Positions 3,209 to 14,454 of a stretch of DNA of 35,310 nt are shown here, one piece after another. A model generated the notes under the pieces. The model was not told the origin of the DNA. It did not search any database and worked only from the letters and a program-made list of their open reading frames with translations. This DNA comes from Bacteroidaceae bacterium (lineage in GTDB: Bacteria; Bacteroidota; Bacteroidia; Bacteroidales; Bacteroidaceae), in assembly GCA_017933995.1 (NCBI GenBank), contig JAGBKI010000029.1, positions 1 to 35,310 of the forward strand, written 5' to 3'. Every line of letters begins with the position of its first letter. The first letter of the stretch is position 1. The translations under genes were made by a program, and so were the position numbers.

Positions 3209-6090
3209 TTAATGTTTCTTCGGCTTGACGTTGATGCGGTAGACAGCGTGGAGGGTGATGTAGCTGGGGATGGTGTTGTACCACGTCTCGGTGTAGCCCT
3301 GGTCGTTCACCGTGCGCTGTACGGTCTTGAGTTCGTGGAGAATGTCGAAGGCCACGGCGCGCAGGAGCCATTGCTTCTTCCTGTCGGGGGTGAAGGAGAG
3401 GGAGGCGTTCCACACGAAGTCGGTGCCGTTCATCGTCCTATCTGCGTAGCCGCTGCGGGCGTAGGCCATCGCGTCGGTCTCGAGGCCGAGTTTCGCCGTC
3501 AGGGGCAGGGTGAGCGTGAGGCCGTAGGAGTAGTTGGTGAAGGCGTTTCGGTAGTAGGCTACGGGGCGTGCGGTCTGCCGCGTGTGGTCCAGCCGCCCCT
3601 TCGCGCCGACGTGTATGCCGCCCTGCGTGCGGTAGGTGAGCGAGGCTTCCGCGCCAGCGTTGTAGTTGTAGACCTTGGAGCGGACGCTGCTGCCGCTGCC
3701 TGTGGTCTGCGCCACCCAGCTGAAGTCCACGCTGCGGCGTATGCTGCCCCAGGCACCAGTGGAGAGCGACAGGCGGCGGGCTTTGCCGAGCTGCTGGCCG
3801 TAGCCGGTGTTCAGACTTGTGTTCCACGAGCCGTCCACGTTGCGGGGCTTCGTGGTGTAGATGCCTGTGGTGGCGTCGTAAGTGCGCTCTTGCCCGATGG
3901 CTTTGTCGTTGAGGTTGCCCTGTAGCGAGATGTTGAACCAGCGGGCGCGCTTTGTCCATGAGCGGTTGTAGCTGAGACCGACTGTGTGCTGCACGCTCTT
4001 TTTCAGGTCGGGATTGCCCAGGAAAACGTTCTGCCAGTCGGAGGCGTCGCGCACGGCCATGAGCTGTGACATCGGGGGCAGGAACTGGGTGTAAGAGTAG
4101 AAGGTGCGTAGCTTGCCGACATTCAGAGTCACGGAGGTGCTGAATGTCTGGTCGCGGCGCGTGATGTGCTGGTCATTACCCGCGCGCTGGTCGAGCAGGC
4201 GGCGGTGGGAGAAATTGTAGTTGGCGAGGAGGCGGATGGTGGCTTTCTTGAAACGCAATGAGAACTGCGGGCGCAGCAGGTGGTTGCGCTTGAACTCGCC
4301 CGTGAGGTAGGTGTTGAGCTGGTCTACCTGCCAGTTGGCGTCGGCGGTGGTCGAGGGGAGCAGGGCCGCGCTGGAGGGCACTGTGTCCTCGAGCTCCATC
4401 CGCGTGCGCGCATCGCGGGAGTAGGACTGTATGTAGAAGTAACTGAACTCGGACGTGATGTTCAGGTTCTTGCGCTTGAGGTAGAGCAGGTTGCGGCTCA
4501 GCCGTAGTTTGTACTCGTAATTATGGCGTGGGGAGTGCTGATCCCACTCAAGCCACGAAGGGGTGCGCCCGGTGTATTCGATGCGCTCGCCCCGGAACTG
4601 CGAGCGGCTGGTATGGGAATAGTTCGCCTGGAACATAAGGCCATAGTTCTTGCGGCTGATGGGCGACTTGACGCGCGATTCGATGGCGATGGACGGTGCC
4701 ACACGTCCGATGTCGAGCCTCCGTCGCGCTCGCGCGAATAGAGCTGTGTCCACAAGTCTTCGCCGCCGTTCGCGCTCTGGTGTTGCAAGGAGGTGTTGCT
4801 GTTTTTCCCTGTGTTGTGGCCGTAGGAGAGTGCGGGGCTGAGCTTGATGTAGGCGCTCCTTGTCTTGAGCGAGAGGTCGCCCGCCCACTTCACGTCGGTC
4901 TGCCCGTTGTCGCTCAAGGCGTTCCCGCTGTTACGCAGCCGCAGTGCGTCGGCGTTCTGCACGGACGTGGTCTGCGTGCGTGTCAGGATGTCCTCGTGGC
5001 GCACCTCGAACGACGTGACAAGTTTCGTCTCCGTCCGCTTCCAGTCCACCGACAGGTTGGCGCCCGCCACCGCCACGGTGCGCTCGCCCGCTGTGACGTC
5101 CATTTTCTTCCACTCCCCCTTGCGCCCCGGCGACTGGTTGTCGCCCAGGTTGTTCACACTGCCGAACAGCCCTACGGTGGAGTGGTCGGTGAGGCGCATC
5201 GCGAAAAGGCGGGCCAGATAGCGCCCGTCCCACCCGCCGTGCAGGCTGCTGCCTCCGGCCAGCTCGAAGTTGGCCAGCCAGCTCTCGGAGTACTCGCGGC
5301 GCAGGCGCACGTCCACCACATAGTCCTTCTTCGTATTGTCAGCCTGGTTGCGCTCGTCGATGAGGTGCTCCCACGGGAGCGCCTGGTGGTAGACCTTCAC
5401 CTTGTCCACGGTGTAGGCTGGGAGGTTGTCGAGTGCCACGCGCGGGTTGCCGTTGAAGAAGTCGCGTCCGTTCACCAGCAGCTTGTCCACGAACTTCCCG
5501 TTCACGTAAATCTGCCCCGATGCCGTGACGTACATGCCGGGCAGCATCGACAGCAGGTTGTCGAGCATCGACCCCTCGGCCAGACGGAACGCCCGCGCAT
5601 CGTATTCTATCGTGTCGCCCTTCACCACCATCGCCACGCGCGAGGCGGTGACAACGGCCTCGCCCAATTTATAGGGCGTATATGTGTTCTTGCGCATCAC
5701 GAGCGGATTGGCGCGCCACTCCCTGACCCTTGCCCCCAGTTTCCGTCGCGGCACGGTGACGCGCGCATAAAGTGTGTCGTAACCCTCGTGCACCGCGCGC
5801 ACCACATACACCGTGCGTTGCGGCACGGAGGCATAGAAGTAGCCGTTCAGCGCATCGTTGAAGTAGTATCTGTTGTCATAATCCATCCTCTCGCACAGGA
5901 TTGTCGTGCTGTCTTGCTCGAACAGTGAAACAGTCGCTTCGCCCAACACATTCCGTGTAAAGGAGTCAATCACCTTCACGCCCAAATGCAGTGTGTCGTC
6001 TTTCGCTTGCTGCGCCCGGGCGGCGCAGGGCAGCAAAATAAAAACGGTCGCCAATACCTGTAAAGCAATCCGAAATTGTTTTATCTTAAT
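3209..6090 (-). pseudogene. Broken outer-membrane beta-barrel protein (plug plus barrel, TonB-receptor-like)
   Basis: Two overlapping frames together encode about 960 residues of one protein. The N-terminal frame (to about 4700) has a signal peptide ending ARAQQ, a carboxypeptidase-regulatory-like beta-sandwich (about residues 40-125) and a plug-like part (LDNLLSMLPGMYV, YVNGKFVDKLLVNGRDFF). The second frame (about 4720 to 3209) carries the rest of the barrel (YSHTSRSQFRGERI to YRINVKPKKH). This matches the Bacteroidetes outer-membrane beta-barrel family related to TonB receptors. The frames join by a -1 shift near 4700-4725; no slippery heptamer is seen. The best signal peptide needs a start at 6090-6088, but that codon is ATT (read KIKQFRIALQ after it); the only standard alternative is TTG at 6054, which removes the positive n-region. 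Two faults suggest decay, though a sequencing error could explain the frameshift. Confidence 0.75.
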
Positions 6091-6118: not shown

Positions 6119-6152
6119 CAAAGTTATGAAGAACCGCCGTTACGGTAACAAA
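6119..6152 (-). promoter_or_regulatory. Promoter of the barrel gene (-33 TTTG, -7 TAACTTTG)
   Basis: On the minus strand TTTG (6152-6149) is followed after 22 bases by TAACTTTG (6126-6119), close to the Bacteroidetes promoter pattern TTTG-N19..21-TAnnTTTG. It lies 28 bases before the presumed original start at 6090, which supports that start over TTG at 6054. Confidence 0.6.
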
Positions 6153-6187
6153 TACCGTTCAAAAACACACTTGTTATAAATGAAAAG

Positions 6188-6243
6188 TGAGGGATTAGGA
6201 GTGAGGAATTGGGAATGAGGGATTAGGAGTGAGGGATTAGGCT
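6188..6243. repeat. Four 14-bp tandem repeats at the 3' end of the transferase gene
   Basis: Units close to TGAGGGATTAGGAG start at 6188, 6202, 6216 and 6230. The last unit covers the stop codon (6237-6239) of the fusion gene. Units 1 and 3 are identical; unit 2 is diverged. Confidence 0.8.
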
Positions 6244-8084
6244 GCGCGGGAGCGGGTGTAGTGCGTGAACCCCGCATCGGCAAGCATCCGCTCCAGCGTC
6301 GCGGTACAATAAACCATACGGTGGCCCCACAGCCGTATAAAGTTGTTCACGACCAATGTCGCCAGTTCGGCTTCGCCCAGTTCCGCGAGGTCGGCATACA
6401 TTCGCGCGGCGTAGTGCTGCAGGCTCCATCGGACATAACGCCGGTTCCGGGCATCCTGCGGGTCTGCAAGCAGGCGTTTCAGGAAGTCCATCGTGGGCAG
6501 TGTGATGCGGATCACACCACCGGGCTTCAGCGTGCGGTAGCATTCACGCAGCATGGACTTGCCCCCTTCGTATGAAAGGTGCTCGAACAAATGTTCGGAG
6601 AAGATGGCATCGAATGTGCCGTCGGTGTATGGAAAAGGCTGCGTGGCATCGAGGAAACGCACCTTGTCGTTTGCTGGTTTAATGTCTGTATCCACCCAGC
6701 CTTGCCCCAGCAGGTTGTCGCCGCAGCCGAGGTGAAGCCCGCTGAAATCCTTGGAAGTGCTGACGAAGCCGCCCGCAGGCTCCGGCGCGGCATACTGCAT
6801 GGCAAGCCGCCTGTAGGGGCGGGCGCGACGCTCGCTTTTGTTAAAGAAGGCCGTGATGCTCCCGCGCACGTTGTTGCCCCTTGTGACATCGGAGTAACCG
6901 AAGTCCTGCTGTATGGAGATGAACGGGTAGACGACCAGTTTGTTTGGCAAAAGCCGTGAAAGGAACTCGTCGGCCACGTCTTTTTCCGTGAACTCGGCCG
7001 AGAGGATTGTCGCGTAGGCGCGTTTGTAGACCACCAGAAACTGCGTGCACCACAACCAGTCGGCCCAATACAGGTCGTTCTTCACGGGCACGAGGTCGCC
7101 AAAGCCGCCGATGCCGCCGAGCAGAATCTGCGTTCCCCACGCCCCAGCCTGCCACACCTGCCCAAGGAAGCGCTCCGTGTCGTAAGCAGGCGTGAAAACG
7201 TGGTCGTCCTCGCAGATCAACACCGCATCTTCCCCTTTGTCGCGGGCTTCCCGCACGATGGCGCAGATGCTTTTCCACAACCCCACGGCGCCCACCTTGT
7301 CGCGGCAGGCATCAAAGTATGTCACGCTGAACTCCGGCCTCTCCTCAAACTGTTTCCGGGCGGACTTCAGCCTTTCCTCCCGCTCCGGCAGGTGAATAAC
7401 GTATGTGCTGAGGGAAACGTTTTGTAGGTCGGGAAGCTGTAGTCGGGTAGCGTCGAGGTTCTTGTAATATCCGTGTACCTTGTGCAGGCGGCGCAGACGG
7501 CTGGCCGTGGTCTGGAACAGCCAGGGCACGCGCCCGTCTTCGTTATTCTTGCCAGTGGCGTCCGAATATCCGAAATCGTCTTGGACGCTGATGAAAGGAT
7601 ATGTTACAAACATCCTTTCGGCGATTTCCGAAAGAAAGATGTCCGTCACGCAGTCCCTGTCGGCGAACAAAAGGATTTTGCTGTACATCCGCCTGAACAC
7701 CACCGTGAACTGCATCCCGGTGAACGCGTCGACAGCAAACAGGTTGTCCGAGACCTGCACGGGGCTGTACACCCAGCTCATGCCGCCCGACAAAAGGTCG
7801 GCGCCGAGCGATGCAGCTTGGGTTATACATTTCTCAAGGAAAGCCGTGTGGTAAGCGTCCGTGAAAACGTGGTCGTCCTCGCAGAAAATGAAGCACTCGC
7901 TCCCTTTCGCTTCCTCTTGGCGCACAATCCCGCAGAACGTCTTCCACAACCCGTAAGCCCCGGTCTTGTGGCTGATGGCCGGGACGACTTCAAGGGCGAA
8001 CTCACTCCTCCCCTTGAACTGGACTTCCACGGACTCCTTGCGATCCGTGCGTTTTGCAAGGTTGGCGACGTAGACGGAATACAT
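6237..8084 (-). CDS. Fusion of two GT25-like glycosyltransferase domains and a SAM methyltransferase
   Basis: A 615-residue cytoplasmic protein without signal peptide. Residues 1-205 and 226-425 are two copies of a glycosyltransferase fold like LPS-type family GT25: YVANLAKRTDRK and YVIHLPEREERL at their starts, CEDDHVFT at 68-75 and again at 291-298 (the acidic motif), and QDDFGYSD (168-175) versus QQDFGYSD (392-399). Residues 448-615 are a class I SAM-dependent methyltransferase: HLGCGDNLLGQGWVDTD (451-467), FSEHLFEHL and YRTLKPGGVIRITLP. It probably transfers two sugars and methylates the glycan or its carrier; the acceptor is unknown. It is the last gene of the operon with 8123-9700 and 9703-10161 (38-base gap). 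Three such domains in one chain is unusual. Stop lies in a 14-bp tandem repeat. Confidence 0.8.
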   Translation of the reverse strand: MYSVYVANLAKRTDRKESVEVQFKGRSEFALEVVPAISHKTGAYGLWKTFCGIVRQEEAKGSECFIFCEDDHVFTDAYHTAFLEKCITQAASLGADLLSGGMSWVYSPVQVSDNLFAVDAFTGMQFTVVFRRMYSKILLFADRDCVTDIFLSEIAERMFVTYPFISVQDDFGYSDATGKNNEDGRVPWLFQTTASRLRRLHKVHGYYKNLDATRLQLPDLQNVSLSTYVIHLPEREERLKSARKQFEERPEFSVTYFDACRDKVGAVGLWKSICAIVREARDKGEDAVLICEDDHVFTPAYDTERFLGQVWQAGAWGTQILLGGIGGFGDLVPVKNDLYWADWLWCTQFLVVYKRAYATILSAEFTEKDVADEFLSRLLPNKLVVYPFISIQQDFGYSDVTRGNNVRGSITAFFNKSERRARPYRRLAMQYAAPEPAGGFVSTSKDFSGLHLGCGDNLLGQGWVDTDIKPANDKVRFLDATQPFPYTDGTFDAIFSEHLFEHLSYEGGKSMLRECYRTLKPGGVIRITLPTMDFLKRLLADPQDARNRRYVRWSLQHYAARMYADLAELGEAELATLVVNNFIRLWGHRMVYCTATLERMLADAGFTHYTRSRAA

Positions 8085-8122
8085 AAGTTTGTCAATAGAT
8101 AAGTTTGTTAGTCATGAGGGTC

Positions 8123-9700
8123 TTAGTTCACTGGCAGGGCGTGAAACAAACCGATTAAATCTTCCACGTCATAGTGTTTCGGCATCGGGCGGCCGTCTAC
8201 CAGTACGACAGGCGTGCCAATGATGCCAGCTTCGGACGCCCACTTGCCGGTCGACGCAATCACCATATCCGCTTCCCTTCGCAGCCCGCCGGTAACAGTC
8301 CATGCAGCGCGAAGTTTTCTTCTTTCCTCTGCGCTGCCGTACCAGCGGGTCAGCCTCTGCCAAGATTTTTCCGCTCCGTTCTCTATATAGTCTGCGATGA
8401 TGAAGGCTGCGGCTTCTTTGGAGGCTTCACCGAAAGTCATCAAGACGTATTCAATGGGGAAACCCGCTTCCAGCAACCTTTGCAGCCGACGGTGCATCCC
8501 AGCGCAATGGTGGCAGAACAAATTGCTGACCACTGTTATGGTAGGGCGGGCAGACTGCGGGGTTCCACCATACCGCAAAGTATTCACTTCGTTAAGCGAT
8601 GGGAACATCTTTTCTTTTTCCAGCAGGCATCTGAAAACGGCTGCTTGCCGCTTAATGCCCATTAGCGACGAAAGCCAAGTTTTGGCCTCGTCCCGCTCAC
8701 GGTGATACAAAGCGACGCGGTGAAAAGCGATGCCAAGCAACGTGTACAGGCAGAGTAGGGGTATGTATTGGTATGCCTCGCGAAGGAGTTCTGTAATCGT
8801 ATTTTCAGTATACACACCCGCCCATAGACAAAAGAGGGTTTGCACCCACACCAGCACCATCACGCTTAAACACAGCAGACACCACTGGCTTGCGCGTATG
8901 CTTTGATACCATACGCTCCAAACCGTCAAGGGGAGAGCCAAAATGAAAACGAAGGGAATAATGGCCATAGCCGCCGCAGGGCAAAGCAGCATATAGGTGG
9001 TGTTGCCCAGGAAGAAAGCAAGGCCGATTTCACTTAGATTATAGTTTGCTGGCAGGACGGCATGGTGCTCCTTTGCCAATCTGCCGCAGTTCTGTTTGCG
9101 GTTTAGGAGGCAAAACTTCCTTATTAGGCTGCTGGAAGAATCGCCTATGGAGAGTTTGAAAAGCAGAAAACATAGGGCGGCAGCCAAACCATTTATGACA
9201 AGATCTGCAATAAGCGGAATGGAATAGACCTGCAACCTGGGCAAAATGACCGCCAAGATGAAGGCACAGGTACTGATTAAGATGCCTGCCGCTTCAGCAA
9301 TCCGAACCCTTTGCTGTGTGATGTGCTGGTCGTATTCTGGCTCAATGGCTTTATCTGACGGCTTCGCGAACAAGACAGCCCCCGACCACAAGTCCTGAAA
9401 ACGGGTGGGCGTGACATTCCACGTTTTACCGTCCTTATCTATTGAAACGCAGCTGCGGGAAACTTCCGTCACGATCCTTACCCTGCCTGAGACCTCAGCT
9501 AAGAACGGAGTGGGGAGTTTCCCGATATCGTGCTTGTCCCTAACCCTTATGGCAACTGGGGTAAGCCCGTACTCCTCCAATACCTGCGAAATGCCCAGCA
9601 GGTTGTCCCGATAAGGATGTGTGTCGCACACCTCCCGAGTGTACCTCGTTGTATGGGGCACATTGTAATAGGAAAGCAGGAATTCAAGAAGAGGGTACAT
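8123..9700 (-). CDS. C39-like / vitamin K epoxide reductase / thioredoxin fusion membrane protein
   Basis: A 525-residue disulfide-forming membrane protein. Residues 1-115 resemble the C39-peptidase-like domain found at the N-terminus of such Bacteroidetes proteins (YNVPHTTRY, DTHPYRDNLLG); a canonical catalytic cysteine is not evident, so it may be a binding domain. About 135-330 is a multi-helix VKOR domain with the loop pair C197/C205 (eight apart, as in VKOR) and the active CLLC (274-277) in SQWCLLC. Residues 385-525 form a DsbA/thioredoxin-like domain with CHHC (396-399) and the cis-proline loop IGTPVVLVDG. Start chosen at ATG 9700, two bases after the stop of the upstream gene and right before the domain; TTG at 9724 would overlap that gene. 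GC content is lower than in the flanking housekeeping genes. Confidence 0.88.
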   Translation of the reverse strand: MYPLLEFLLSYYNVPHTTRYTREVCDTHPYRDNLLGISQVLEEYGLTPVAIRVRDKHDIGKLPTPFLAEVSGRVRIVTEVSRSCVSIDKDGKTWNVTPTRFQDLWSGAVLFAKPSDKAIEPEYDQHITQQRVRIAEAAGILISTCAFILAVILPRLQVYSIPLIADLVINGLAAALCFLLFKLSIGDSSSSLIRKFCLLNRKQNCGRLAKEHHAVLPANYNLSEIGLAFFLGNTTYMLLCPAAAMAIIPFVFILALPLTVWSVWYQSIRASQWCLLCLSVMVLVWVQTLFCLWAGVYTENTITELLREAYQYIPLLCLYTLLGIAFHRVALYHRERDEAKTWLSSLMGIKRQAAVFRCLLEKEKMFPSLNEVNTLRYGGTPQSARPTITVVSNLFCHHCAGMHRRLQRLLEAGFPIEYVLMTFGEASKEAAAFIIADYIENGAEKSWQRLTRWYGSAEERRKLRAAWTVTGGLRREADMVIASTGKWASEAGIIGTPVVLVDGRPMPKHYDVEDLIGLFHALPVN

Positions 9701-9702
9701 TG

Positions 9703-10161
9703 TCAGTAAGTAAAGGAACCCCAATAAGCATAGCCGTTATATGCGACTGCAATATCGTAAGTCGCGCCCGCTGTTAAGTGTCCGATGTTATATGATTCTG
9801 TTCCACTTGCCAGTAATGTTATGAAGGTTTCTACTACTTTTTCGCCGCTTTGGTCATAAACCACAACATTGAAAGATATGCTGGAAGTGGTTTCGTTGCT
9901 AAACTGCAAAGTTTCATTCCAGATAAACACTTTTAGGAAAGCGTCAAGAGAAGGAACTTTTGTGGGAATGTGCAGCCCGCCTTTGTTTTTGCCACCCCCA
10001 ATAAAAGAAATCTTCGTCCCTACATCCAAGCTGTCCGTCATACACTTGGTACGATTCCTGGTAATATCAGTGCTACATACCGTTAAGAGATTGTTGTATG
10101 CAGCATGGAACTTAATGGTGCATAACGACAATATGCCAATGACAATAAAAAGTGGTTTCAT
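9703..10161 (-). CDS. Small secreted protein with two cysteines (DUF3244-like C-terminus)
   Basis: A 152-residue exported protein. Signal peptide at residues 1-20 (MKPLFIVIGILSLCTIKFHA). The mature part has exactly two cysteines, C29 and C40, followed by a Gly/Lys-rich stretch (GGGKNKGG) and an all-beta C-terminus (about 70-152) whose strand pattern and ending NGYAYWGSF recall the small Bacteroidetes DUF3244 immunoglobulin-like proteins; that match is by eye. It is the first gene of the minus-strand operon, has its own promoter, and stops two bases before the VKOR-fusion gene, so the two are likely made together. I infer it is the substrate of the oxidase. Its true role is unknown. Confidence 0.75.
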   Translation of the reverse strand: MKPLFIVIGILSLCTIKFHAAYNNLLTVCSTDITRNRTKCMTDSLDVGTKISFIGGGKNKGGLHIPTKVPSLDAFLKVFIWNETLQFSNETTSSISFNVVVYDQSGEKVVETFITLLASGTESYNIGHLTAGATYDIAVAYNGYAYWGSFTY

Positions 10162-10232
10162 GGTAATAGGGATTTATTTAAAGAAAGAAGAAGGTTTTAT
10201 AGAGAACCAGTCACCTTCCAGTGTTTCCGCCG

Positions 10233-10265
10233 CAAAAGTACGAACGCTGATTTGGAAGCCACAAA
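10233..10265 (-). promoter_or_regulatory. Promoter of the accessory operon
   Basis: On the minus strand TTTG (10265-10262) is followed after 21 bases by TACTTTTG (10240-10233), a full match to the Bacteroidetes -33/-7 pattern. The leader to the ATG at 10161 is about 65-70 bases. The 10162-10466 gap is divergent; beyond the two promoters I see no other feature in it. Confidence 0.7.
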
Positions 10266-10432
10266 GAAAAGCCGTTCCAATCCGTTTCACATCAGAAAAC
10301 AGATTTTACCCATTGTCTATCAGTGTGTTATACACGTGTCTTGTGAAAAAAGAGAAGATAAAAAAGGCTGAAATTAACAATAAAGCCTCCGTGAACGCCT
10401 CTTGACAGTGGGAAATACCTGCAAAAAAGCTA

Positions 10433-10440
10433 TAATTTTG
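10433..10440 (+). promoter_or_regulatory. -7 box of the divergent regulator gene
   Basis: TAATTTTG matches TAnnTTTG exactly, 26 bases before the ATG at 10467. TTGACA at 10402-10407 lies upstream, but the spacing fits neither the Bacteroidetes nor the sigma-70 pattern well. Confidence 0.5.
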
Positions 10441-10466
10441 CCACAAAACCGACGCTAAAGACACTT

Positions 10467-12134
10467 ATGAAGTACCTCGGATATCCGCTTGGCTTCCTTT
10501 TCCTGGTTATCTTTTTATGTGGATGCAAGGAGAACAATCAACCTGCTATAGCCAAGCTACACGAAATTTATAACCTATGTGAGAACCACCCGGCCTCTGC
10601 GCTATCGAAACTTAAACGTTTTGAAAAGGAATCTCTTGATAATACCAAAGAGACCGTGGCATATTATGATTTGGTTTATGTGAGAACTCTTGATAAGAAT
10701 AATGTCTGGCATACAACAGACAGCGTTATAAAGAGAGCCTGGGACTTTTATGGAAGCCGGAACGATGATACCTTAAAGGCGGTTTGCGCATACTATATGG
10801 CTCGCGTATATAATAATATGTATGATTCTCCAAGGGCGCTTGAATATCTCCTGCTGGCAGAACAGGCTATTAACAAATTGCCACAAAATACAGCTGCGCG
10901 GATAAATTCTGCTATTCGCTGGACGTTCTACATAAACTCTCAATTAAGCTCCTTGTATAGGCGCCACGACCAGAACCGCCTTGCCTTGGAGACTGAAAAA
11001 AAGGCTGTGGAACTTATACCTTACATAGAAGAGAGTATTGATTCTATTTGGGCATTTCTTGATTTAGGTGATACCTATGGTACGAATCTCGAGAGGGATT
11101 CCGCCGCATATTTTTATAACAAGGCACTGAAGCTAATATCAGGGCATAATCTTTGGGAAAGATATAACGAACAGGTTGGCTATGTCCTTTATGATTATTT
11201 GCTTTGGCATTGGGAAGCCAAGGCTGACGCGTTGGCCGACACCCTGCTGAAAAAGGTTCCTTCTTCAAAACGGTCTTCTTCTACAACGGGAACTCTCGGA
11301 GATTACTTTTATAGCAGGGGAGACAAGGACATCGCAGAGAGATACATAAAAAATGCCTATAGACAGACGAACGACTTGCGCGACTCCATCTCTATGGCAA
11401 TGAGCCTGATGCTGTTGTACAACGACGGGGCACACAATGACTCTCTGCGCAAATATGTGGGAGAGTTCCTTGACATACAGGCACGCCACGATGCGAAAGC
11501 CAGGGAAGAAGCGCTCGTGAAACGCTCCAGTCTTTATAAATACTATCAGGACAAAGCCGAGGAGGAACGCCTGCGTTCCCTTGCCTTGGAGCGGCTAAAC
11601 AATCTTTACAAACTATGCGCGCTGTTCCTGGTGGTCTGCATCTGCGGAATCCTCTTCGGGCGCAGGACTTACCGCAGGTTGCAGACTGTCATAAAGCGGC
11701 GCACGGCAGAGGTCAGAGAAGAGGCAGAGAAGAACAACAGGTTGGAAGAAACGCTCACTGGAAAAGAGAAGAAAATAAAGAGCCTCTCGGCCAGCCTCAG
11801 CCGTACGCGAAGAGAAGCTCGGCAGCAAAAGCTGTTGAAGAGAATTACCGCCGAAGTCGCGAGCGAGGTTCGGCGGAAGTTTGAGGCGGCGGCCAGCACC
11901 GGCAGGCGTGAGAACCTGACGGAGGAAGACTGGACTGCGCTGCTTGAAGCGAATAAAAACGAGCTGCTCCCGCTTGTAAAAGAAACCGCCGACGGCCTGC
12001 CATGCGGCGTGCCGCCCGACATCCCCGCCCGCGTCCTCATCCTCAAACTCCTGGGCTTCTCCTTCACCGGCATCGCCAACATCACCGGCCTCCCCCGTAC
12101 CACCGTATACCGTCTGTACAAGAAAGCACGGTAA
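10467..12134 (+). CDS. Membrane-anchored TPR lipoprotein regulator with C-terminal HTH
   Basis: A 555-residue one-protein sensor-regulator. The N-terminus is a lipoprotein-type signal (FLVIFLCGC, lipid Cys at 20). Residues 30-350 are helical TPR-like repeats in the periplasm (for example YYMARVYNNMYDSPRALEYL). One membrane helix lies at about 383-398 (LCALFLVVCICGILFG), followed by a basic cytoplasmic coiled coil (405-475). The end is a helix-turn-helix: LKLLGFSFTGIANITGLPRT then TVYRLYKKAR. This layout is known in Bacteroidetes for regulators next to surface or peptide loci. It faces the accessory operon and probably controls it. Odd: the sensor part is AT-rich (25 of 60 GC in 10501-10560) while the HTH part is very GC-rich (41 of 60 in 12001-12060), as if the gene were a mosaic. 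Confidence 0.82.
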   Translation: MKYLGYPLGFLFLVIFLCGCKENNQPAIAKLHEIYNLCENHPASALSKLKRFEKESLDNTKETVAYYDLVYVRTLDKNNVWHTTDSVIKRAWDFYGSRNDDTLKAVCAYYMARVYNNMYDSPRALEYLLLAEQAINKLPQNTAARINSAIRWTFYINSQLSSLYRRHDQNRLALETEKKAVELIPYIEESIDSIWAFLDLGDTYGTNLERDSAAYFYNKALKLISGHNLWERYNEQVGYVLYDYLLWHWEAKADALADTLLKKVPSSKRSSSTTGTLGDYFYSRGDKDIAERYIKNAYRQTNDLRDSISMAMSLMLLYNDGAHNDSLRKYVGEFLDIQARHDAKAREEALVKRSSLYKYYQDKAEEERLRSLALERLNNLYKLCALFLVVCICGILFGRRTYRRLQTVIKRRTAEVREEAEKNNRLEETLTGKEKKIKSLSASLSRTRREARQQKLLKRITAEVASEVRRKFEAAASTGRRENLTEEDWTALLEANKNELLPLVKETADGLPCGVPPDIPARVLILKLLGFSFTGIANITGLPRTTVYRLYKKAR

Positions 12135-13980: not shown

Positions 13981-14454
13981 GTAGAGAGTAGTTAAGTAGT
14001 TAAGTAGTTAAGCCGAATGGCAAACTAATTCGTATATCTTTTTATATGACTCTGCTGAAATCGCGTTCGATCACGCCCTTACAGTAGCCGTTCAAGACTT
14101 TGCTCGTTTCTTCCACGGTATTGAAGAGTTGATTATATTCTTCTTCGTCAATGTACCCAAGGTCTTTAGAAAGCAAGACGTAATATCGACATTCTTCCAA
14201 ACTTCCTTGAGCTATATTGTAGAAACGTAGTTTGTCGGCTCTGCTTAATTTCTTATATCCTTCGGCAATATTGGCAGGTATAGATACGGCTGCACGTTGG
14301 AACTGTGAACAAAGACCAAACTTCTCATAGGAAGGAAAGTTCTTTGTTGCACGATAGACCATTAGGACAAACTCATGAGCCTTTTGCCAAGCGTATACGC
14401 CATGGAAATTCGTAGTCATATAGGTAATGGCTTAACTACTTAACTACTTTCTAC
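13981..14454. mobile_element. Four-helix-bundle gene cassette with terminal inverted repeats
   Basis: The small gene at 14042-14419 is bounded by inverted repeats. Read inward, the left end (13981-14014) is GTAGAGA, then GTAGTTAA three times, then GCC; the right end (14454-14429) is GTAGAAA, then GTAGTTAA twice, then GCC. The innermost 19 bases match perfectly. The cassette is AT-rich (24 of 60 GC in 14221-14280 against 38 of 60 in 15181-15240) and sits between etfA and the acyl-CoA dehydrogenase gene. No transposase is present, so movement would need an outside enzyme. Target-site duplication is not evident. Confidence 0.5.
14042..14419 (-). CDS. Four-helix-bundle protein (23S rRNA intervening-sequence / S23 family)
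   Basis: A 125-residue cytoplasmic helical protein. The family signature is clear: HGVYAWQKAHEFVLMVYRAT at the start and RAAVSIPANIAEGYKK in the middle, followed by GSLEECRYYVLLSKDLGYI. This family was first seen inside 23S rRNA intervening sequences and is related to the accessory protein of diversity-generating retroelements; stand-alone copies are common in Bacteroidetes and their job is not known (nucleic-acid binding is assumed). Here it interrupts the etf/acyl-CoA dehydrogenase gene set inside an inverted-repeat cassette, with much lower GC than its neighbours, a sign of transfer. It has no recognisable promoter of its own. Confidence 0.9.
   Translation of the reverse strand: MTTNFHGVYAWQKAHEFVLMVYRATKNFPSYEKFGLCSQFQRAAVSIPANIAEGYKKLSRADKLRFYNIAQGSLEECRYYVLLSKDLGYIDEEEYNQLFNTVEETSKVLNGYCKGVIERDFSRVI

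Follow-up and report, generated by a model that had tools for sequence, protein, structure and literature searches.

A Bacteroidaceae locus that is probably a decayed copy of a conserved Bacteroidales cassette for double-glycine peptides

Four genes at positions 6237..12134 of contig JAGBKI010000029.1, from a Bacteroidaceae bacterium (assembly GCA_017933995.1), raise the question of which product their enzymes act upon; the window, the whole stretch of DNA analyzed here, covers 35,310 nucleotides. The genes encode a TPR/HTH regulator (P0004), a small protein with a signal-peptide-like start (P0001), a protein with C39-like, VKOR and thioredoxin domains (P0002, whose family we call the oxidase) and a fusion of two glycosyltransferase (GT) halves with a methyltransferase (P0003, the GT-GT-MTase family). 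A first-pass annotation of the DNA proposed that the locus makes, oxidizes and perhaps glycosylates and methylates either a secreted protein, for which it pointed to the 152-residue P0001, or a cell-surface glycan. Our comparison with related loci draws on gene content, gene order, conserved motifs and missing parts, all of which are directly observed. An oxidized, perhaps glycosylated or methylated, secreted peptide is still the likeliest reading, but P0001 no longer appears to be that peptide. We think it likely that the window retains part of a Bacteroidales cassette for a double-glycine (GG), six-cysteine peptide, and that a deletion has taken away the peptide gene. In Prevotella-related bacteria such a cassette probably serves to produce small six-cysteine peptides, to modify them, to form their disulfide bonds and to export them; the genes left in the window are probably orphaned and decaying.

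A scan of named genomes with a GT-GT-MTase profile returned 13 loci (L129-L141; L numbers denote fetched neighborhoods and G numbers genomes of the window's genus). The locus L129, from a Bacteroidaceae metagenome-assembled genome from roe deer omasum, encodes in order a TPR regulator, a DUF3244-like protein of 121 residues, an oxidase (28% identical to that of the window), a GT-GT-MTase (53% identical), a GG six-cysteine peptide of 108 residues with a Gly-Ser stretch, and a large outer-membrane barrel protein. All four families of the window are thus found in order in L129, and among the 58 genomes of the genus, where an oxidase relative occurs in six, a P0003 relative in five and both in four (Fisher p 1.7e-4), the two adjoin in all four that hold both; one of these has the oxidase split between two contig ends and another has separate GT halves and methyltransferase, an arrangement of pieces seen in G310. 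The earlier proposal that the genes belong together is borne out by these observations. Loci L130-L133 carry an oxidase, a GT-GT-MTase, a peptide, a barrel, a C39 ABC exporter and HlyD, with L132 starting inside the oxidase, and an oxidase match, a GG peptide and a barrel are present in 5/5 of the uncut GT-GT-MTase loci L129-L133. As L130 corresponds to G309 and L132 to G325, the new cases are L129, L131 and L133. in L134 a regulator and a DUF3244-like protein are accompanied by a GT truncated where the contig stops, and the preceding 8 kb contain no oxidase; L135-L139 have one GT unit only, beside a C39 exporter and HlyD, with an oxidase match that is weak in L137 and absent from the other four; L140 is short, and L141 has an oxidase and a GG peptide with a small GT match. 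Regulator, DUF3244 protein and oxidase also occur together in L040 and L044. The window shares the regulator, DUF3244-like protein, oxidase, GT-GT-MTase and downstream barrel with the L129-type cassette, but has no double-glycine six-cysteine precursor between its GT-GT-MTase and barrel.

To describe the peptides we used 24 oxidase loci (L024-L047), made up of 20 neighborhoods and four of the eight plasmid-collection records that match P0002. A short open reading frame with a double-glycine-type leader and at least three core cysteines lies within 6 kb in 16/24 of these loci, against 0/24 for the same rule on reversed sequence. This final rule was revised after a previous one (12/24 loci, 2/24 reversed) had missed leaders; the L039 peptide is seen only by the previous rule and the G325 peptide lies on a second contig, giving 18/24 when both are included by eye, and the final rule also misses the L056 peptide. 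Ten aligned peptides from six genomes all fit one pattern, written after inspection of the ten, in which a leader of the form G..L[TS].[EQ]E[LM]K precedes GG, AG or SG/GS and the core runs CxC, a gap of 21-30, CxxxCxxxC and a last C. Eight have six cysteines and two have seven, and in every case a barrel homolog starts 10-225 nucleotides after the peptide. Several peptide-barrel pairs stand in tandem in L058, L059, L131 and L133; in L058 (G309) and L059 (G298) the units consist of a GG cysteine-rich peptide and a barrel of about 950 residues, with diverged cores and similar leaders. Long Gly-Ser repeats, a possible glycosylation tract or spacer, separate leader and core in two of the ten peptides (L129:6071-6397 and L042:6531-6899). 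The C39 ABC exporter domain is matched in 12/24 oxidase loci, in L043 by an exporter that is cut short; for L040 the exporter lies beyond the first fetched part and is seen in L059, and for L041 it lies on another contig, L056.

P0002 has the features of a VKOR-thioredoxin oxidase: both domains score over the Pfam cut-offs (VKOR 28.9 bits against 27.5, Thioredoxin_4 24.3 against 23.2), the loop pair C197 and C205 is present, and so are both CxxC motifs, C274/C277 in the VKOR part and C396/C399 in the thioredoxin part. Its Peptidase_C39 match is near the threshold (21.2 bits against a cut-off of 22, and 24.6 bits in a genome-wide domain search). Relatives were found in 12/295 genomes of the order (E <= 1e-10) and 6/58 of the genus (E <= 1e-6), both counts including the genome of the window, and phage records gave no match. 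As a profile, the N-terminal domains from 27 members of the family, P0002 among them, match the C39 domains of 17 exporters (hhalign P 1.8e-12). The DCG motif that supplies the catalytic cysteine is nevertheless present in 0/27; the 17 exporters were chosen by this motif and are no independent control. By pattern, the VKOR loop pair is kept in 26/27, the VKOR CxxC in 26/27 and the thioredoxin CxxC in 23/27; of the four exceptions to the last, L030, L032 and L043 are short or broken, and the L038 motif is visible in the alignment. L030 and L032 encode short C39-VKOR proteins that have neither a thioredoxin domain nor, by the final rule, a GG peptide. Judged by its motifs, the C39 domain of P0002 is not to be read as a protease, and in the absence of the catalytic DCG motif it probably serves to dock leaders. 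Cysteine-less C39-like domains of HlyB-type exporters are thought to recruit substrate, as described in the available part of PMC6363468.

The methyltransferase part of P0003 is clear (Methyltransf_11, 37.5 bits, cut-off 21.2). Its Glyco_transf_25 match (PF01755) reaches 21.0 bits against a cut-off of 24, and the L129 relative scores 38.1 bits; the protein has two similar GT25-like halves with an EDDH motif in each. The domain assignments of the first-pass annotation hold overall, with VKOR, thioredoxin and methyltransferase over their Pfam cut-offs, C39 near it, and GT25, TPR and HTH below. P0003 ends about 50 residues before a tail that is present in L129, L131, L133, L039 and L056; the one tail motif tried fits four of these five loci and varies in L056. 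A GT25-like relative of P0003 also lies near a C39 exporter, HlyD and two further GT-like genes in L057 (G332), with no oxidase match within 18 kb.

P0001 has two cysteines, at residues 29 and 40, after its signal-peptide-like start, and is the first gene of the operon. Searches against Pfam, NCBIfam and PDB gave nothing useful, 60 other genomes gave no match, and the fold predicted from the single sequence has a predicted local distance difference test (pLDDT) score of 47.9. The DUF3244 model PF11589 does not match it at E<=1; across the genus this model matches, mostly weakly, in 47/58 genomes, none of the matches being at P0001. A profile of four slot proteins (those occupying the DUF3244-like position) and one other DUF3244-like protein does match P0001 (E 2.6e-5, against 0.16 for the best of 500 shuffles). 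A previous profile of three DUF3244 sequences scored it no better than shuffles, and the match came after the L129 and L134 sequences had been added. The cysteine pair of P0001 has no counterpart in the slot proteins of L129, L134, L040 and L044, whose cysteines vary. On account of the profile match, and since the cysteine pair is not common to the slot proteins, P0001 is probably a DUF3244-like accessory protein and not the substrate. The regulator P0004 has a signal- or lipobox-like start, a TPR region, one transmembrane segment at residues 380-398 and a C-terminal HTH, all its TPR and HTH matches falling below the Pfam cut-off; it is divergent in the window and co-directional in L129.

Beyond what the first-pass annotation described, we find an outer-membrane barrel gene broken into two out-of-frame pieces (3209-6054) next to P0003 on the same strand, a repeat array (6174-6241) and a probable deletion. 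Residues 5-455 of the L039 barrel match one frame and residues 488-975 another; OMP_b-brl_3 is matched in one piece and CarboxypepD_reg weakly in the other, and the start region has no ATG. The gap between P0003 and the barrel is 152-182 nucleotides in the window, compared with 326-416 nucleotides in L129, L039, L056, L131 and L133, where the wider gap contains the peptide gene. The one 15-base repeat pattern tried occurs once in the genome, at the array, and the 14-nucleotide array may be a scar left when the peptide gene was deleted. Three GG-leader rules (strict, broad and final) found no convincing GG peptide in the window; the six frames returned by the broad rule in the first 13 kb lie inside other genes or at an internal start of P0001 and were judged to be chance. 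The peptide profile found no GG peptide in the window's own genome, a weak negative as the profile also misses the peptides of G298. The C39 ABC exporter of a bacteroidetocin-type locus was found neither in the locus nor in the assembly, which is 84% complete and has no C39 domain besides that of P0002; an exporter query gave 15 matches in the genome (23-32% identity), none of which covers the C39 part, since none reaches before query residue 183. That no exporter stands next to these genes does not indicate damage, as L129 likewise has none in 13.9 kb.

Damage is seen in three of seven genus loci with an oxidase trace (G000, G298, G309, G310, G311, G325 and G331), namely the window, G311 and G331; these seven are the traces seen, with no dedicated genus search for further fragments. 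In G311 only oxidase residues 2-52 match before the barrel, and G331 has a stop inside the oxidase match and an exporter match covering residues 2-124 of 736. The G309 oxidase had also been considered damaged and was dropped, its aligned part containing no stop. G311 holds a second decayed copy (L085:7576-10616), in which an oxidase fragment precedes a barrel sharing 97% identity with the G309 barrel across the portion compared. Barrels were rejected as a diagnostic of the cassette, as 55/58 genus genomes match at 1e-30; a C39 exporter is present in one of nine loci chosen for their barrels or for a single weak peptide match, and the barrel profile had no match among solved structures.

Features of the window are listed in Table 1. 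The four genes of the first-pass annotation are real, their frames being recovered at the same positions and on the same strands, and the gaps of 2 and 38 bases between the three minus-strand genes are correct; for P0002 a longer TTG start is also listed, at 9724. The low GC (guanine plus cytosine) content reported for the locus is likewise upheld, at 0.487 for the regulator, 0.412 for P0001, 0.521 for the oxidase and 0.584 for P0003 (range 0.412-0.584), compared with 0.61 for 14465-35310 and 0.669 for 1-2773; the barrel region, at 0.618, is not low. The pattern TTTG-N-TAnnTTTG, which we take to be the Bacteroidales-type promoter consensus, occurs twice in the whole window against 0.21 expected. 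Farther along, 14042-14419 on the minus strand encodes a TIGR02436 four-helix-bundle protein (E 1.3e-37), its neighbors being acyl-CoA dehydrogenase and electron-transfer flavoprotein genes; the kilobase that holds it has a lower GC content, 0.518.

Table 1. Positions of the genes, gene pieces and sites discussed, in window coordinates.
Feature	Coordinates	Strand	Remarks
P0004, TPR/HTH regulator	10467..12134	+	555 residues
P0001, DUF3244-like slot protein (probable)	9703..10161	-	152 residues, signal-peptide-like start
P0002, degenerate C39-like, VKOR and thioredoxin oxidase	8123..9700	-	525 residues from ATG
P0003, two GT25-like halves fused to methyltransferase	6237..8084	-	615 residues, C-terminal tail of relatives missing
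14-nucleotide tandem repeat array	6174..6241	+	4 copies in register, at end of P0003
Barrel gene, N-terminal piece	4498..6054	-	homology to about 6084, no ATG start
Barrel gene, C-terminal piece, other frame	3209..4888	-	OMP_b-brl_3
Promoter-like site TTTG-N-TAnnTTTG	10233..10265	-	upstream of P0001
Second promoter-like site	6119..6152	-	just upstream of barrel pieces

We propose that in an intact cassette the GT-GT-methyltransferase would glycosylate and methylate the peptide in the cytoplasm. The double-glycine leader would be held by the dead C39 domain of the oxidase, whose VKOR and thioredoxin parts would introduce as many as three disulfides at the periplasmic side. The exporter would then cut the leader and secrete the peptide, and the barrel paired with each peptide may be its outer-membrane partner, serving as exit, receptor or immunity. 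In the genome of the window, a deletion at the repeat array seems to have removed the peptide gene together with the 3' end of the gene for the fusion enzyme. A number of observations weigh against this proposal. No exporter is found within the 13.9 kb of L129; the regulators are only weakly similar (22-25% identity, in L129 over only 148 residues); and the GT25 assignment of P0003 is below the Pfam cut-off. Most oxidase loci have no GT-GT-MTase match, and for this reason it is only the position of the gene that points to sugar and methyl transfer to the peptide. The frames of P0001, P0002 and P0004 are still open, although nothing would oblige a dead locus to preserve them. The diverged peptides of G298 escape the peptide profile; the assembly, in 66 contigs, is 84% complete, so that genes for an exporter and a peptide could be among the sequence not assembled, and the frameshift or the repeat could be assembly errors.

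The alternatives differ in what they make of these points. That P0001 itself is the oxidized, glycosylated and methylated product, as first proposed, would suit its signal-peptide-like start, the two cysteines that follow and its place at the head of the operon. It fits the DUF3244-like slot, however, in which its cysteine pair is absent; relatives have a separate six-cysteine peptide; and the presence of a C39-like domain suggests a substrate with a double-glycine leader, of which the start of P0001 shows none, so that we now give this reading little weight. We regard it as about equally improbable that the GT-GT-methyltransferase acts on a cell-surface glycan and stands beside a peptide locus by chance: the Pfam description of GT25 names lipopolysaccharide biosynthesis, of the type this would imply, but relatives of the fusion lie by an oxidase in L129-L133, and relatives with one GT half lie beside a C39 exporter and HlyD in L135-L139.

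A locus that works in trans, with precursor and exporter encoded elsewhere and either unassembled or diverged past the profile, is unlikely, although it has the most to recommend it of the alternatives: P0001, P0002, P0004 and most of P0003 are open, the assembly is incomplete, and peptides diverge outside the leader to the point that those of G298, in the same genus, were missed. Set against this are the single C39 domain of the assembly, which is that of P0002, the 15 exporter-query matches of which none covers the C39 part, and the loss of P0003 tail and peptide at one place. Tandem repeats are trouble spots for assembly, and the draft is in 66 contigs; gap, repeat and frameshift might then all be artefacts of an intact cassette. 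Two separate defects about 1.5 kb apart, and the damage to further genus copies in G311 and G331, make this improbable, a little more so than action in trans. A partly deleted peptide cassette is the reading we prefer.

A literature search, with subscription papers mostly outside its reach, found no printed description of the cassette. It is a conserved peptide cassette related to Bacteroidales double-glycine peptide loci, here in a probably decayed copy. Bacteroidetocin loci, compared by description in the available part of PMC6671954, also combine a double-glycine cysteine precursor, a dedicated thiol oxidoreductase and a C39 ABC exporter in Bacteroidetes, but are four-gene regions with a five-transmembrane protein and 42-residue mature peptides with four cysteines, and are described there without a GT-GT-MTase, DUF3244 protein, TPR regulator or barrel. 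Deletion of their oxidoreductase weakens toxin activity, which is the nearest experiment to the mechanism proposed here (PMC6671954, same part). The Bacteroidales RiPP (ribosomally synthesized and post-translationally modified peptide) clusters in the accessible text of PMC10352776 share GG precursors, C39 ABC exporters, outer-membrane proteins and TPR proteins, as well as LanC-like proteins without cyclase motifs, some glycosyltransferases and one methyltransferase; unlike the cassette, eight of the nine clusters selected there encode a radical SAM enzyme and the remaining one a LanM, and the terms 'vitamin K' and 'thioredoxin' are absent from that text. The C39-like domain (CLD) of HlyB-type exporters shares the fold without the catalytic cysteine and a presumed role in substrate recruitment, but sits on an ABC transporter, whereas that of P0002 sits on a VKOR-thioredoxin oxidase (PMC6363468, available part). 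The VKOR family shares the conserved-cysteine core, and the paper on it notes extra N-terminal domains in Bacteroidetes, but in its accessible text these are not named C39-like or tied to peptides, 'peptidase' having 0 occurrences (PMC4555120). Glycocins are likewise glycosylated exported peptides (PMC12139839, PMC8620827, in the parts available), sugar transfer in the window cassette being suggested only.

Taken together, the data invite a bolder proposal, which we offer tentatively and hold to be possible rather than probable: a new class of peptides exported by Bacteroidales, bearing three disulfides as well as sugar and methyl groups added by a GT-GT-methyltransferase, served by a membrane oxidase that would grip the double-glycine leader through its dead protease domain, and each with a barrel of its own in repeated peptide-barrel modules, a quickly gained and lost ligand-receptor or toxin-immunity array of which the window would be a snapshot of loss. 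Bacteroides are said to be without general disulfide machinery (PMC6671954, in the part available, citing earlier work), and a dedicated oxidase with a leader-docking domain would therefore explain cystine-rich peptides in these anaerobes. The damaged copy in the window warns against taking accessory proteins for the product, and the peptide-barrel pairs would offer a direct handle on the outer-membrane recipient of such peptides.

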